The notes below the pieces were generated by a model. The model was not told where the DNA came from. It searched no databases and worked only from the letters and a program-made list of their open reading frames with translations. A stretch of 64,000 bases of DNA from an uncultured Spirochaetaceae bacterium (GTDB lineage Bacteria > Spirochaetota > Spirochaetia > Sphaerochaetales > Sphaerochaetaceae), in contig CALXYL010000008.1 in assembly GCA_944392985.1 (NCBI GenBank), positions 1 through 64,000 of the forward strand, given 5' to 3'. The position numbers and the translations under genes were made by a program. Below, one piece after another: positions 6,271-58,939 of the stretch (position 1 is its first letter; every line of letters begins with the position of its first letter).

Positions 6271-8391
6271 ATGAATATACGGATACCGGTGTCCGATCCC
6301 GCCAGGGTCAGGGCCCTTAAGGAACGCTTTTCCCTTGATCTCCTTACAGCGACGATACTTGAGCGGCGAGGACTGGAGAGGGCCGAGGATGCCGTTTTCT
6401 ATCTTGAGACTGATACGGTCTATCAGCATTCCCCGCTTGAATGCGATGACGTGCATACTGCAATTGAACGGATAAACGAAGCGATAGAGGAGGATGAGAG
6501 GATCCTCATATTCGGAGATAGGGATGTCGATGGGGTTACAGGCTCCGCGATCATGTACCGTGCGCTTAAGAGCCTTGGAGGGAAGGATGTCTCAGTGAGG
6601 CTTCCCGAAGGGGATGAGCCGTATGGAATGAGCTTGGATACTGTCAGCGAGATCAAGGAGAAGGGCTATTCGCTCGTCATCACTGTTGACAATGGCATCT
6701 CTGCGCTGGATGAGATTTCCGAGCTTGAAAGGAGCGGAATCGACGTCATCGTCCTCGATCATCACATCCCAGGCGAAGGGCTTCCTGGAGCCGTGGCGGT
6801 ATTCGACCCAAAGATCGAGGGTTCAGGCTATCCTTTTTCCGGGCTTGCAGGCTGTGCTGTCGCCGCAAAGATGGTCTGGGCGCTTTTCTTCTCCCGTACT
6901 CCGCTGTATGGGAGTGAATGCATCGTGCTTCATGCTGAGCCAAGGAATGGCTCCATACGCATCAATGCTGTAAGGCTTGAGAATCTGATTGAGATCGATC
7001 GGATCACGGAAGAGGTCGTGGAAGGGATAGGCGCATCATCAGAGAAGGATCGCCTGATGGATTTCCTTGCAGTGAACCTTCCCATCATCGTCCTCGATGG
7101 CGATACGGAGAAGAAGATGCTCCGCCGTGCTTTCGGAAACGGTGTTGATATATCGCTCGTGGATATCCGTGAGAGGATGGAGGCGCTTCTTCCGCGTTAC
7201 CAGGGAAGGTCCCTTTTCGATCTTTCCCAGCTTTCACGCGCTGCCCGCTACAGTGATGGGGACAGGGAGATCGAAACGCTTGTATCACTCTTCAGGTCGA
7301 TATCCATCTATTCATATCCATCCCTTTCCAGGGAATACGACACGTTGCTGCAGCTTGCGGCAATCGGGACGATTGCTGATCTCATGCCGATGAAGGACGA
7401 GAACAGGATCATCGTCAAACGCGGTCTGCGCCTTCTTTCGGAGAACCCGATTCCATGCCTGCGTTCACTTCTTGGACGCCAGAATCTCACAGGCAAGAGG
7501 CTGACGACCCGGGATATCTCATTCTACGTTGCTCCCGTGATAAACGCGGCTGGAAGGATGGGGCACCCAATGGATGCATTTGCCCTCCTCATCACCGATG
7601 ATCTTACGGAAGCGGAAGGACTGACTGAGAACCTGATGCAGATGAACAGGGAACGCCAGAGGGGCGAGGAGGAAGCGCTTCAGCTTGTGCAGCCGATGGC
7701 AGAGGAGAGCCTTGCCCGGCTTGGAGGACGTTTCATCATAATCTGCGACAGCCGCATACCACGTGGACTGACGGGGGCGCTTGCATCAAAACTGGCAAAG
7801 CAGCATTCGGTGCCTGCCATCGTTATGGCTGATGTGAACAATGAGCGGATATCAGCATCGATGCGGTGTTCTGAGGAGCATGATGCAAAGGCATTCCTCT
7901 CATCGTTCTCCTCGCTCTTCGACGATTACGGAGGCCATCGTTGCGCAGCTGGGTTCTCAATGCCTCATGATAGGAAGGAGATCCTCCTGCAGATGATGGA
8001 GGGGGTTGTGATGTCGATGGATGAATCGGAGGCGGAAGGCGGTGAGCTGACCGCGGATGCAACCATCCCCCCTGATTACATGACGATGGGGCTCTGGCGC
8101 CTTTCATCCCTCCTTGAGCCATTCGGGCAGGAGAATGAGGCGCTTCGCCTGCTGATCAGGAATGCGGTGATCACCGATATAGCGTCGGCAAAGCCAGACC
8201 AGAAGCTGATGCGGTTCTCTCTCCGCTATGGCGTCTATGCCTGGCCCGCGGTATGGTGGACACCCCATGACCGTGAAAGGTTCAGGAAGGGCATGCATGT
8301 CGATGTGCTCTTCACTCCCGATGTGAATTTCTGGAAAGGCGTGGAGAAGGAGCAGCTCTCCATTGTCGATATGGAGGAAAGCGATGCCTGA
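6271..8391 (+). CDS. recJ: Single-stranded-DNA-specific exonuclease RecJ
   Basis: This 706-residue DHH-family nuclease degrades single strands 5' to 3' in recombination and base excision. Motif I is DRDVDG near residue 82 (usually DYDADG). VITVDNGIS follows, then the DHH motif LDHH near 162, INAAGRMG near 423, and the DHHA1 GGHRCAAGF near 553. A C-terminal OB region follows. Residues 215-300 hold an insertion-like stretch between the DHH and DHHA1 parts. It lies between recO and the rRNA methyltransferase gene, which it overlaps by 8 bases. Confidence 0.95.
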   Translation: MNIRIPVSDPARVRALKERFSLDLLTATILERRGLERAEDAVFYLETDTVYQHSPLECDDVHTAIERINEAIEEDERILIFGDRDVDGVTGSAIMYRALKSLGGKDVSVRLPEGDEPYGMSLDTVSEIKEKGYSLVITVDNGISALDEISELERSGIDVIVLDHHIPGEGLPGAVAVFDPKIEGSGYPFSGLAGCAVAAKMVWALFFSRTPLYGSECIVLHAEPRNGSIRINAVRLENLIEIDRITEEVVEGIGASSEKDRLMDFLAVNLPIIVLDGDTEKKMLRRAFGNGVDISLVDIRERMEALLPRYQGRSLFDLSQLSRAARYSDGDREIETLVSLFRSISIYSYPSLSREYDTLLQLAAIGTIADLMPMKDENRIIVKRGLRLLSENPIPCLRSLLGRQNLTGKRLTTRDISFYVAPVINAAGRMGHPMDAFALLITDDLTEAEGLTENLMQMNRERQRGEEEALQLVQPMAEESLARLGGRFIIICDSRIPRGLTGALASKLAKQHSVPAIVMADVNNERISASMRCSEEHDAKAFLSSFSSLFDDYGGHRCAAGFSMPHDRKEILLQMMEGVVMSMDESEAEGGELTADATIPPDYMTMGLWRLSSLLEPFGQENEALRLLIRNAVITDIASAKPDQKLMRFSLRYGVYAWPAVWWTPHDRERFRKGMHVDVLFTPDVNFWKGVEKEQLSIVDMEESDA

Positions 8392-54909: not shown

Positions 54910-55644
54910 ATGCTTGAACTGAGGAATATATGCTGGTCCACGCCAGAAGGGAATCCGGTGCTGCGCGATGTCTCGCTTTCATTCGCTGAAAAGGGACTTG
55001 TCGTGATCACAGGACCAAACGGCGGAGGAAAGACGACGCTCGCGAAGATCATAGCGGGCATCGAGCGCCCGGAGAGCGGCCAGCTGCTGCTTTCCGGCGA
55101 GGATATAACGGATCTTGATGTGACTGAAAGGGCGAGGAAGGGCATCAGCTACGCCTTCCAGCAGCCTGTCAGATTCAAGGGAATCACAGTGCGCGGCCTT
55201 CTGGAGATCGCTGCAGGAGGGCGCCTTGATGAGAAGTCGCTCTGCGCGCTTCTATCGAAAGTCGGCCTCTGTGCGCGTGATTACGAGGACAGGGAGGTCA
55301 ACGCTTCCCTTTCTGGAGGTGAGATAAAGCGCGTCGAGATCGCTTCCGTGCTTGCGCGAGGCGGACGTATATCGATTTTCGATGAACCGGAAGCGGGAAT
55401 AGACCTCTGGTCGTTCTCCGGCCTTATTGAGGCGTTCCAGGAGATAAAGCGCTCATCGGAGCGGACTGAGATCATCATCTCCCATCAGGAGAGGATACTT
55501 GAGGTTGCAGACAGGATAGTCGTCATAGAGAACGGACGCGTTGAACGGGATGGGACAAGGGATGAAGTGCTGCCGTATCTTATATCGGCATCGCGCTGCC
55601 CAGTATGTCCTAATCCCACAGTAAGGAGCAGAGGCAATGAATAA
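54910..55644 (+). CDS. smsC: SufC-like ATPase of a minimal SMS iron-sulfur system
   Basis: The 244-residue ABC ATPase resembles SufC: Walker A TGPNGGGKTTLAK, Q-loop region ISYAFQQPVRF, signature SLSGGEIKRVEIASVLARGG and Walker B ISIFDEPEAGIDLWSF. It powers cluster assembly on the next gene product, which it overlaps by 8 bases. No sufS, sufU or sufE gene follows. The pair matches the two-component SmsCB layout reported in archaea and deep-branching bacteria. Confidence 0.85.
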   Translation: MLELRNICWSTPEGNPVLRDVSLSFAEKGLVVITGPNGGGKTTLAKIIAGIERPESGQLLLSGEDITDLDVTERARKGISYAFQQPVRFKGITVRGLLEIAAGGRLDEKSLCALLSKVGLCARDYEDREVNASLSGGEIKRVEIASVLARGGRISIFDEPEAGIDLWSFSGLIEAFQEIKRSSERTEIIISHQERILEVADRIVVIENGRVERDGTRDEVLPYLISASRCPVCPNPTVRSRGNE

Positions 55645-56554
55645 GACGACGGAGGAGATTCTGAGGATCGTTTCTGACTGGAAGGGCTCCTTCTGCGGGG
55701 CATACTCCATCAGGGAGGATGGCAAGGGCATTGCCAGGATGAGCACGGAGCATGTGCATATCACGCCGAAGGAGGATAAGCCGGGGCTGGATATCGTGAT
55801 CGATGATGGTACAAAGGGCGAAAGCCTTGCGATTCCCGCCTGTGTGACCCATGGGGATGTCGATGATCTTGTCTACAATGATTTCTTCATAGGAAATGAC
55901 TGTGATGTGACCATCATTGCAGGCTGCGGTGTGCACACTCAGACAGGAGAGGCTGCCAGGCATAGCGGTATCCATCGCTTCTTCATCAAGGACAGGTCGA
56001 AGGTAAGGTATCTGGAGAAGCATATCGGGCTTGGGAATGGAACAGGTGAGAAATCAATCGATCCTGTGACCGAGGTCGTTCTTGGGGAGGACAGCCTCCT
56101 TGATATGGAGACTTCCCAGATTGGAGGGGTGACACGCACAAGGAGAGTGACGAAGGGCATCGTCGGCAAGGGCAGTAGCCTGATCGTGCATGAGCGTCTG
56201 ATGACGGAGAAGGATGAGACCGCTTCGACTGAGTTCTCCGTCGATATGAATGGAGAGGGGAGCTCTGTGGATCTCATCTCCCGCTCTGTCGCAAAGGATG
56301 ATTCCTTCCAGGAGTTCCGGTCAGTGATCCACGGCAATGCTCCATGCTCTGGGCACAGCGAATGCGATGCGATCATCACTGGCAACGGAAGGGTGAGCGC
56401 CTCTCCTCAGCTTGATGCCGCATGCATTGATGCATCCCTTATCCATGAAGCGGCTATCGGGAAGATTGCTGGCGAGCAGCTTCTGAAGCTCAGGACATTC
56501 GGACTGACAGAGGAGGAGGCGGAGGCGAGGATCATAGAGGGATTCCTGCGCTGA
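55637..56554 (+). CDS. smsB: SufB/SufD-like scaffold of a minimal SMS system
   Basis: The 305-residue protein has the SufBD beta-helix core (FIGNDCDVTIIAGCGVHTQ, SSLIVHERLMTEKDETA) and the C-terminal HSECDAIITGNGRVSASPQLDA, then LTEEEAEARIIEGFL. SufB is usually over 450 residues; this short form is typical of SmsB. Several cysteines (in VIAGCG, APCSGHSEC) could hold the cluster. Its stop lies one base from the end of the SRP-like RNA gene on the other strand. Confidence 0.87.
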   Translation: MNKTTEEILRIVSDWKGSFCGAYSIREDGKGIARMSTEHVHITPKEDKPGLDIVIDDGTKGESLAIPACVTHGDVDDLVYNDFFIGNDCDVTIIAGCGVHTQTGEAARHSGIHRFFIKDRSKVRYLEKHIGLGNGTGEKSIDPVTEVVLGEDSLLDMETSQIGGVTRTRRVTKGIVGKGSSLIVHERLMTEKDETASTEFSVDMNGEGSSVDLISRSVAKDDSFQEFRSVIHGNAPCSGHSECDAIITGNGRVSASPQLDAACIDASLIHEAAIGKIAGEQLLKLRTFGLTEEEAEARIIEGFLR

Positions 56555-56555
56555 G

Positions 56556-56637
56556 TGGTGGAGACGGAGGGAATCGAACCCTCTGAGCAAAGCTTCCATT
56601 CAGGACCTGACCCGCTCCTGGACCTCCAGACGCCCCC
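56556..56637 (-). ncRNA. ffs: SRP (4.5S-like) RNA with tRNA-like termini
   Basis: The 82-base minus-strand RNA contains GGGTCAGGTCC (56613-56603) and GGAAGC (56597-56592). Together they rebuild most of the Ffh-binding loop of SRP domain IV: C-G, C-G, U-A, then G.A, G.G and A.C pairs. The apical loop is UGAAU instead of GGAA. The outer parts look like tRNA: the first seven bases pair with the seven before ACCA, a 17-base T-arm (56583-56567) carries TTCGATT, and a short D-arm-like hairpin CTGG-AGGT-CCAG is present. A TATGAT box lies upstream (56655-56650). No anticodon is visible. Confidence 0.6.
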
Positions 56638-56721
56638 TTTCATGAGAGTATCATATTTTCAGCGAATTAACGGCGTGGCAATGTGGATTTCATTGCCATG
56701 CGCTTCACTGTTGGCGTGAGA

Positions 56722-57291
56722 ATGATCAGCCACGTAAAACTAGCACTGCACGTCATGTCCCGCTATCCTTTCGGGGTGCTTGGGAGCCTCGCTTATATCT
56801 TCGGGAATATAGAACCGGATCTCTGCTTCACTTCATACTTTTTCGGCATCGTGCCGGGGGATGAAGGAAGAGGCCACAGCTTCACTACAGCCCTTATGCG
56901 CATTGCAAGGATGGAGAACAGGATAGTGTCAGGCGGGATCGTTGCAGCGTATACGCTGGGGAAGATTACACACTATGCTTCAGATGCCTTCACTTATCCT
57001 CACAATACCGCTCTCTTCAAGGGCAGCCTGAAGGAGCATATGGTTTACGAGCGCGCTCTGGATAGGGCTCTGCTGCCATACATTCTTTCCGCAGCAGAAG
57101 TAGAGGCCCTCCCTGTCGATAGTGCCTCATCCCTTGTCAGGAAGCTCCATTGCCGCTATGAGAGGAACAGTCCATCGCTGGAGAATGATCTCTCGCACAT
57201 CCTCTCTGCATCCCTTGCTCTCCGCACTTCATTCAGCTTTGCTGCATTCAGAAGGAAGGCTCTTGGCGGCATGTGGCTTCCTCGGCTATGA
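56722..57291 (+). CDS. Zinc-dependent phospholipase C-like / S1-P1-fold protein
   Basis: The 189-residue protein has the zinc-ligand pattern of the phospholipase C / nuclease superfamily: GNIEPDLCF near residue 29, a histidine in DEGRGHSF, TLGKITHYASDAFTYPHN with the HxxxD motif, and HMVYERALD. There is no signal peptide in this start choice. ATG 56722 is used; GTG 56683 is possible. The stop overlaps the ACT-domain gene. Confidence 0.72.
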   Translation: MISHVKLALHVMSRYPFGVLGSLAYIFGNIEPDLCFTSYFFGIVPGDEGRGHSFTTALMRIARMENRIVSGGIVAAYTLGKITHYASDAFTYPHNTALFKGSLKEHMVYERALDRALLPYILSAAEVEALPVDSASSLVRKLHCRYERNSPSLENDLSHILSASLALRTSFSFAAFRRKALGGMWLPRL

Positions 57292-57572
57292 TGCCGGGTA
57301 TGGGAAAATCAATTATAACGGTAGTCGGCCGCGATCAGGTCGGAATCATCGCAAAGGTCTGCACCTATCTTGCAGAGAGCAATGTCAATATCCTGGATAT
57401 AAGCCAGACGATTGTCGATGGCTTCTTCAATATGATGATGATCTGTGACTCCAACAATGCGAGCAAGGATTTCCTTGTGCTCTCTGAGGAGCTTGATGAG
57501 CTTGGCCACAGTCTCGGCTGCATCATAAAGCTCCAGAGGGAGGAGATCTTCGACAGCATGCAGAGGATATGA
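57291..57572 (+). CDS. ACT-domain protein, UPF0237
   Basis: The 93-residue protein is a tandem-ready ACT domain: [46 protein letters not shown]0237 proteins sit beside UPF0210 proteins in many anaerobes and probably sense an amino acid or other ligand. ATG 57291 overlaps the previous stop (TGATG); ATG 57300 would give the more usual N-terminus. It overlaps the UPF0210 gene by 4 bases. Confidence 0.88.
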
Positions 57573-58939
57573 CGATGATCAATCTCAATGAAGTCATAGA
57601 GACCAATACGATGATAGAGAAGGAGAATCTCGATGTGAGGACGATCACGCTCGGGATCTCCCTTCTGGACTGCATCTCGGATTCAGTTGAAAAGCTATGC
57701 GGGAATATCCACAGGAAGATCGTCACTGTTGCCCGGGATCTTGTGCATACCGGTGAGGAGATCGAGAGGGAGTATGCAATCCCTGTCGTGAACAAGAGGA
57801 TATCCGTCACGCCGATTGGCATCATAGGCGCTGCAGCCTGCCGTACCGCTGATGATTTCGTGCGCATCGCAAAGGCGCTTGACAAGGCCGCGGCGGAGGT
57901 TGGCGTCAATTTCCTCGGTGGCTACTCAGCCCTCTCTGTCAAAGGGATGACAGATGCTGAGCGCCTTCTCATCGAGTCTATTCCTGAAGCCCTTTCGCAG
58001 ACTGAGCGCATATGCTCTTCCGTAGCTGTCGGCTCTACAAAGACAGGCATCAACATGGATGCTGTCGCACTGATGGGCCGGATCATAAAGGAGACTGCAC
58101 AGAAGACTGCGGAACGTGATTCAATCGGCTGCGCGAAGCTCGTTGTGTTCTGCAATGCCCCCGATGACAATCCATTCATGGCGGGAGCTTTCCATGGAGT
58201 GACTGAAACCGATGCTGTGATCAATGTCGGTGTAAGCGGTCCGGGAGTCATCAAGCATGCGCTTGAAGGAGTGAAGGGCGAGGATTTTGAGGTCCTTGCG
58301 GAGACTGTGAAGAGGACAGCCTTCAAGATAACAAGGCTTGGACAGCTTGTCGCAAAGGAAGCATCGAGACGGCTTGGCATCCCATTCGGCATAGTCGATC
58401 TTTCGCTTGCTCCGACGCCGGCTGTCGGGGACAGCATCTCCGATATACTTGAGCTGATGGGGCTGGAGAGGACTGGCGCTCCAGGCACTACAGCTGCCCT
58501 TGCGCTTCTCAATGACCAGGTGAAGAAGGGTGGATTGATGGCATCCAGCTATGTCGGAGGACTGAGCGGCTCCTTCATACCTGTCAGTGAGGATCAGGGG
58601 ATGATCAATGCTGTCAATGCCGGGGCGCTTACGATCGAGAAGCTGGAGGCTATGACATGCATCTGCTCGGTAGGACTCGATATGATCGCGATTCCCGGGG
58701 ATACAAAGGCTTCGACGATATCAGGGATCATCGCCGATGAGATGGCAATCGGCATGGTTAACCAGAAAACGACTGCCGTGCGCCTGATTCCTGTGATTGG
58801 AAAGGGAGTAGGGGACAGCGCCGTGTTCGGAGGGCTTCTCGGCTATGCTCCGATCATGCCAGTAAGCCGCTTCTCCTGCGATGATTTCATCGCGCGCGGT
58901 GGCCGTATCCCCGCACCTGTTCATAGTTTCAGGAACTGA
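57569..58939 (+). CDS. PFL family protein, UPF0210 (DUF711)
   Basis: The 456-residue protein matches UPF0210: the N-terminal [50 protein letters not shown] and [18 protein letters not shown]. The fold is distantly related to glycyl-radical enzymes, but the function is unknown. It is coupled to the ACT protein gene, so the two probably act as a ligand sensor and enzyme or effector. Confidence 0.92.

Follow-up and report, generated by a model that had tools for sequence, protein, structure and literature searches.

The locus considered here lies in a 64,000-nt stretch of DNA from an uncultured Spirochaetaceae bacterium (the window), and raises the question of what kind of RNA combines tRNA-like ends with a central arm that is not an anticodon arm. 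The earlier note on this DNA had taken the element for one chimeric molecule, in which the Ffh-binding tip of signal recognition particle (SRP) RNA domain IV sits on a tRNA-like frame.

Architecture of the element

The RNA, GGGGGCGTCTGGAGGTCCAGGAGCGGGTCAGGTCCTGAATGGAAGCTTTGCTCAGAGGGTTCGATTCCCTCCGTCTCCACCA when read from position 56637 to 56556 on the minus strand, comprises the parts listed in Table 1. The acceptor with its two G-U pairs (3-70 and 5-68), the T-arm, the D-like hairpin and the encoded ACCA, all described in the earlier note, were confirmed and assigned to the minus strand. The four-way cloverleaf, with another arm substituted for the anticodon arm as had been proposed, proved to be the free-energy minimum of the sequence. 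This central arm occupies the position of the tRNA anticodon arm or of helix P2 in tmRNA, and the D-hairpin stands where tmRNA has a single-stranded D-loop. The distance between D-arm and T-arm is only about 33 nt, and an mRNA-like domain and pseudoknots are absent. The folding energy was not unusual (z = -0.45) and is uninformative, and the case therefore rests on homologues. ARAGORN called neither a tRNA nor a tmRNA in the window, and a promoter scan yielded no strong match and none above background.

Table 1. Coordinates, strand and supporting evidence for the RNA element, its parts and the neighbouring genes (positions in the window).
Feature	Position	Strand	Evidence or remarks
tmRNA-like, tRNA-domain-only RNA, 82 nt including ACCA	56556..56637	minus	sequence, Rfam, covariance models
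Acceptor 5' strand GGGGGCG (G3 = 56635)	56631..56637	minus	7/7 pairs; G3-U70 kept in all homologues
D-arm-like hairpin CTGG-AGGT-CCAG, GG in loop	56618..56629	minus	covariation in genus copies
Central arm (stem, asymmetric internal loop, CC/GG cap)	56585..56617	minus	fold of homologues, compensatory changes
Conserved 20-nt core GTCAGGTCCTGAATGGAAGC (looked like SRP domain IV)	56592..56611	minus	homologue alignment
T-arm GAGGG-TTCGATT-CCCTC, 5 bp, loop TTCGATT	56567..56583	minus	Rfam, fold, alignment
Acceptor 3' strand CGTCTCC (U70 = 56562)	56560..56566	minus	fold, covariation alignment
A73 and encoded CCA	56556..56559	minus	sequence; relatives carry TCA, AGA, GAA or TTC instead of CCA
SufD-like gene, convergent, ends 1 nt from the RNA 3' end	55637..56554	plus	PF01458
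Zinc-dependent phospholipase C-like gene, between RNA and ACT-domain gene	56683-57291		
ACT-domain gene, divergent from the RNA in five syntenic genomes	57273..57572	plus	domain search, synteny
DUF711 gene, next after the ACT-domain gene	57569-58939		

Homologues and kinship with tmRNA

Based on covariance models, homologues were found in eight of 48 genomes of the genus (G019, G028, G036, G047, G030, G000, G012 and G010); the source genome itself is 1.96 Mb long and 95.9% complete. Within the genus, blastn recovered the copies in G030, G047 and G028 and, more weakly, that in G036. A model built from the window and G030 copies (R1) retrieved G028, G047, G036 and G019 with scores of 42-76 bits; the highest tRNA score was 28.8 bits. 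A wider model (R3), trained on six genus copies including that of the window, scored the eight genus genomes at 53-77 bits vs. 35 bits for the top-scoring genus tRNA, the scores of the six training copies not being independent. G012, G010 and a genome from another genus of the family (G594, 62.5 bits) lay outside the training set, and tRNA-like matches elsewhere in the class reached up to 42.7 bits; E-values from these models are rough. A match at phylum level (G200) was discarded as a small form, its sequence looking like the 3'-terminal part of a standard tmRNA, and a search of a plasmid collection gave matches to the T-arm/acceptor part only.

Five copies (G000, G028, G030, G036 and G047; source genome included) adjoin and diverge from the same ACT-domain gene, and a further 25 genus members have no diverged copy at their ACT loci. 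G047 shows a similar open frame at the position of the phospholipase C-like gene, whereas none was observed in G028, G030 or G036. The G019 copy lies on a short contig between two genes for single-strand-binding protein (SSB; L453:956-2098), perhaps a mobile element, and the G010 copy about 3 kb from Cas6 and Csx1-CARF genes (L452:1258-3589 and 6465-6541), possibly a type III CRISPR neighbourhood.

G3-U70 and A73 are present in all nine genomic copies, while acceptor pairs 4-6 covary. Compensatory changes in the acceptor and central stems were more numerous than in every one, or almost every one, of 500 shuffles and the T-arm covaries in the wider family, so that the covariation which the earlier note had proposed to look for was indeed found. 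The 20-nt core (genus consensus GUYARRKCCYNNMYGGAAGC) is identical in G019 and in the ACT-locus copy of G047. The D-hairpin, with double changes in three of its four pairs among genus copies, is what separates the ACT-locus copies from the others, and the D region of the G019 copy (GGUGUCGAC) is tmRNA-like.

Among Rfam families the best match to the window RNA was the tmRNA model (RF00023; 34.7 bits, cut-off 47, about 300 of 374 positions skipped). When this model was run over the source genome, the element ranked second (E 2e-12), behind the full tmRNA on contig C1 (146.6 bits) and ahead of the best tRNA (26.1 bits), whereas with the tRNA model (RF00005) it obtained 18.1 bits, below the cut-off of 29, and ranked last in the genome. 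The likeness to standard tmRNA consists of the 7-bp acceptor with G3-U70, A73, the T-arm and the helix at the P2 position; the differences are the absence of tag frame, mRNA-like domain and pseudoknots, the hairpin replacing the D-loop, and a score below the gathering threshold, which the G019 copy exceeds (54.4 bits). Compared with tRNA-domain-only tmRNA, the window RNA has G3-U70, A73, the T-arm and a covarying helix at the P2/anticodon-arm position, but instead of the unpaired D-loop (GGUUUCGAC) its clade carries the paired CTGG-AGGT-CCAG. It is well supported that the window RNA is a cut-down relative of tmRNA, which keeps the alanine-accepting part and is without the message part.

A plain tRNA was rejected on the ARAGORN and tRNA-model results. 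A tRNA-Ala that has decayed or been put to new use, with acceptor and T-arm kept, the anticodon arm rebuilt and no link to tmRNA, also appears unlikely. In favour of this origin, the element is similar to the tRNA-Ala of relatives in its T-arm and acceptor (88% over 26 nt), and the window copy has a tRNA-like D-hairpin; yet the tmRNA model scores the element well above the tRNA model, and its core and stem are shared with the G019 copy, which has a tmRNA-like D region and passes the tmRNA threshold. Moreover, conservation with compensatory changes indicates that the element is not decaying.

The SRP interpretation is very improbable. The strands GGTCAGGTCC and GGAAGC are present in the window RNA, and the likeness to small bacterial SRP RNA (RF00169) is confined to domain IV loop letters (GTCAGGTCC...GGAAGC) in two copies, those of the window and G030. 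The list of Ffh-site pairs given in the earlier note can be written for the window sequence but is not conserved in the family: G028, G047, G019, G010 and the phage forms have not retained the Ffh-type loop, the SRP U-A pair being replaced by G.A in G028, G047 and G019, the SRP-type G.G by A.G in homologues, and G.A by A.A in G047 and G019. In addition, a Watson-Crick stem runs on directly after GGAAGC in homologues (CATGGG...CCCATG in G019), which places the last C opposite the G of GUY, whereas in the SRP register it stands opposite A, and the internal loop is asymmetric (about four bases vs. one). Both registers can be drawn for the window sequence alone, and it is the homologues that decide between them. 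Rfam SRP families gave no match at the site with E <= 10, and an ordinary small SRP RNA was found on contig C3 (58.6 bits, above the cut-off), contrary to the expectation of no other ffs gene. Identity as SRP RNA was rejected on these grounds; what survives of the proposed chimera is a single conserved RNA in which a tRNA-like acceptor/T domain is combined with an arm other than an anticodon arm. The earlier note would have concluded on chance similarity in a degenerate tRNA from a second ffs gene together with missing covariation; the gene exists, but the covariation is real and supports a tRNA-like domain of tmRNA type, not SRP. An exact 22-mer in a Flavobacteriales metagenome-assembled genome, considered as an SRP gene, was taken as a chance match, as Rfam found no SRP RNA there.

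It is hardly tenable that the element is a pseudogene, or a tmRNA remnant produced by integration at a tmRNA 3' end. Such 3' ends are indeed found near the integrase genes of phages, for example in phi30c, but here both acceptor halves are present and paired, synteny extends over five species and the helices covary. The phi30c case, in a Streptococcus phage (L469:995-1055), is probably an attachment site and not a small tmRNA.

Related forms in phages

Viral contigs chosen by GGAAGC plus a T-arm carry RNAs of about 80 nt with tmRNA ends (UGGUUUUCGAC, GGAC and T-arm) and only an arm of the same type between them. A pattern scan for a short distance from GGTTTCGAC to GGAC returned at least 120 viral matches and at least 76 distinct viral RNAs of 75-81 nt with full acceptor and T-arm, both counts being lower bounds. 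The pattern itself demanded the D-loop, GGAC and GTTCGA letters, whose conservation therefore carries no weight as evidence; G3-U70 and A73 were left free and occur in all 76 viral forms among the matches listed. For 17 of the listed forms, 97 cells with changes on both sides of a pair were counted vs. 28.7 in shuffles, G3-U70 being invariant, and four of five viral loci tested scored 51.6-79.5 bits with the Rfam tmRNA model. CCA is encoded in 17 of the 76 phage forms among the matches listed. There is no tag reading frame: Ala...stop frames occur in 20 of these 76 vs. 20.9 in shuffles, and a hidden tag frame (e.g. Ala-Ala) was rejected for lack of excess over shuffles.

Full-length unannotated forms were also found in cultured phages, within tRNA clusters in the Streptomyces phages LuckySocke (90.8 bits), Shaeky (90.3), pSt2308 (82.5) and BRock (78.9), and between head-protein genes in Pontimonas phage phiPsal1 (78.4 bits). 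In GiJojo, a full-length blastn match overlaps an annotated hypothetical protein. Neighbours on the viral contigs include genes for major head protein, head maturation protease, head-tail adaptor and DnaB-like helicase. Of the 97,179 entries in the tmRNA database of 2025, only 9 are of the type "standard, no CDS" (PMC11915505); with at least 76 viral forms without CDS and five cultured phages carrying unannotated full-length ones, such RNAs are probably much more frequent than the records show.

A model built from phage forms only (R2) was run on the genus and scored G019 at 52.1, G010 at 43.9, G036 at 37.6 and G028 at 37.2 bits, vs. 29.4 bits for genus tRNAs. G047 and G030 remained at tRNA level and the window copy, at 23.1 bits, scored no better than tRNAs; it joins the phage forms through the other genus copies, by synteny and the R1 and R3 models.

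Two further arrangements were observed beside phage tRNA genes. Microbacterium phages Dismas and Armstrong (L463:1939-2027 and L464:1938-2027) carry an unannotated tmRNA-like RNA of about 90 nt with a longer central hairpin, which R2 scores at 30-36 bits. In Gordonia phage Sixama (L467:1940-2050), an unannotated T-arm and acceptor-like stretch within a tRNA cluster was not called by R2 as a small tmRNA.

Proposed role in ribosome rescue

A tRNA-domain-only tmRNA is known from mycobacteriophage DS6A (Mao et al. 2009, as related in PMC4131195 and PMC11915505). A molecule of this form is reported there to inhibit tmRNA in Escherichia coli and, according to PMC4131195, to do so independently of chargeability. 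As described in these papers, the DS6A molecule shares with the window element a tRNA-like domain without a tag frame, and the phage forms reported here look to be of the same kind; the window element differs in being chromosomal, syntenic in five species and provided with a paired D-arm, in a host with its own tmRNA and SmpB. The CDS-less tmRNAs of plastids (about 65 bp, Mallomonadaceae) and mitochondria (RF02544) likewise have no tag frame (PMC11915505), but they are organellar and the mitochondrial genes are usually permuted, whereas the RNAs described here are in one piece and bacterial or phage-borne.

A full tmRNA is present in all nine copy-bearing genomes, and the SmpB of the source genome is intact. 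Together with the absence of a tag frame and the inhibitory precedent (PMC11915505), this makes competition with trans-translation, in our view, the most probable role. We therefore propose, with a probability of about 0.7, that the element is a template-less, chromosomal variant of tmRNA which bears a D-arm, is charged with alanine and competes with trans-translation. The RNA of about 80 nt would descend from the tRNA-like domain of tmRNA, having kept the alanine acceptor stem (G3-U70, A73), the T-arm/elbow and the helix at the P2/anticodon position and lost anticodon, pseudoknots and tag frame. Once expressed, as it presumably is, it would most likely be charged with alanine by AlaRS and be bound by EF-Tu and possibly SmpB; it would then compete with the full tmRNA of the cell for them or for stalled ribosomes, damping trans-translation. 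As to the direction of transfer, the form, common in tailed phages, would have become fixed in this bacterial lineage as a chromosomal gene beside the ACT-domain gene and have acquired a paired D-arm there.

The tmRNA D-loop is an important contact of SmpB. Because the D region of the window RNA is a hairpin and not a tmRNA D-loop, titration of SmpB is less sure here than in the phages, and this altered D region of the window copy, together with the strict alanine identity, argues against simple SmpB titration. That the AlaRS identity pair stays constant throughout as the other acceptor positions change suggests selection for charging.

This last feature would also suit a different function, to which we assign a rather low probability, namely that a template-less, chargeable relative of tmRNA itself rescues ribosomes by accepting the nascent chain and letting go, with no inhibition of tmRNA. 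The strict alanine identity suggests that charging matters, unlike for the inhibiting molecule, reported in PMC4131195 as active whether chargeable or not, and tag-less mitochondrial tmRNAs have been suggested still to help (PMC11915505). A second, minimal rescuer nevertheless seems redundant next to the SmpB of the host and the full tmRNA of all nine copy-bearing genomes.

The odds seem to us about even that tailed phages harbour a large family, for the most part unrecognised, of tmRNA derivatives that have no template, can be charged with alanine and modulate host trans-translation, and that one of them, with a D-arm of its own, has been fixed here as a built-in regulator of tmRNA. Selection for charging sits awkwardly with SmpB titration as the whole story, and the presence of a chromosomal copy alongside a full tmRNA raises the question of whether bacteria tune ribosome rescue with such RNAs.
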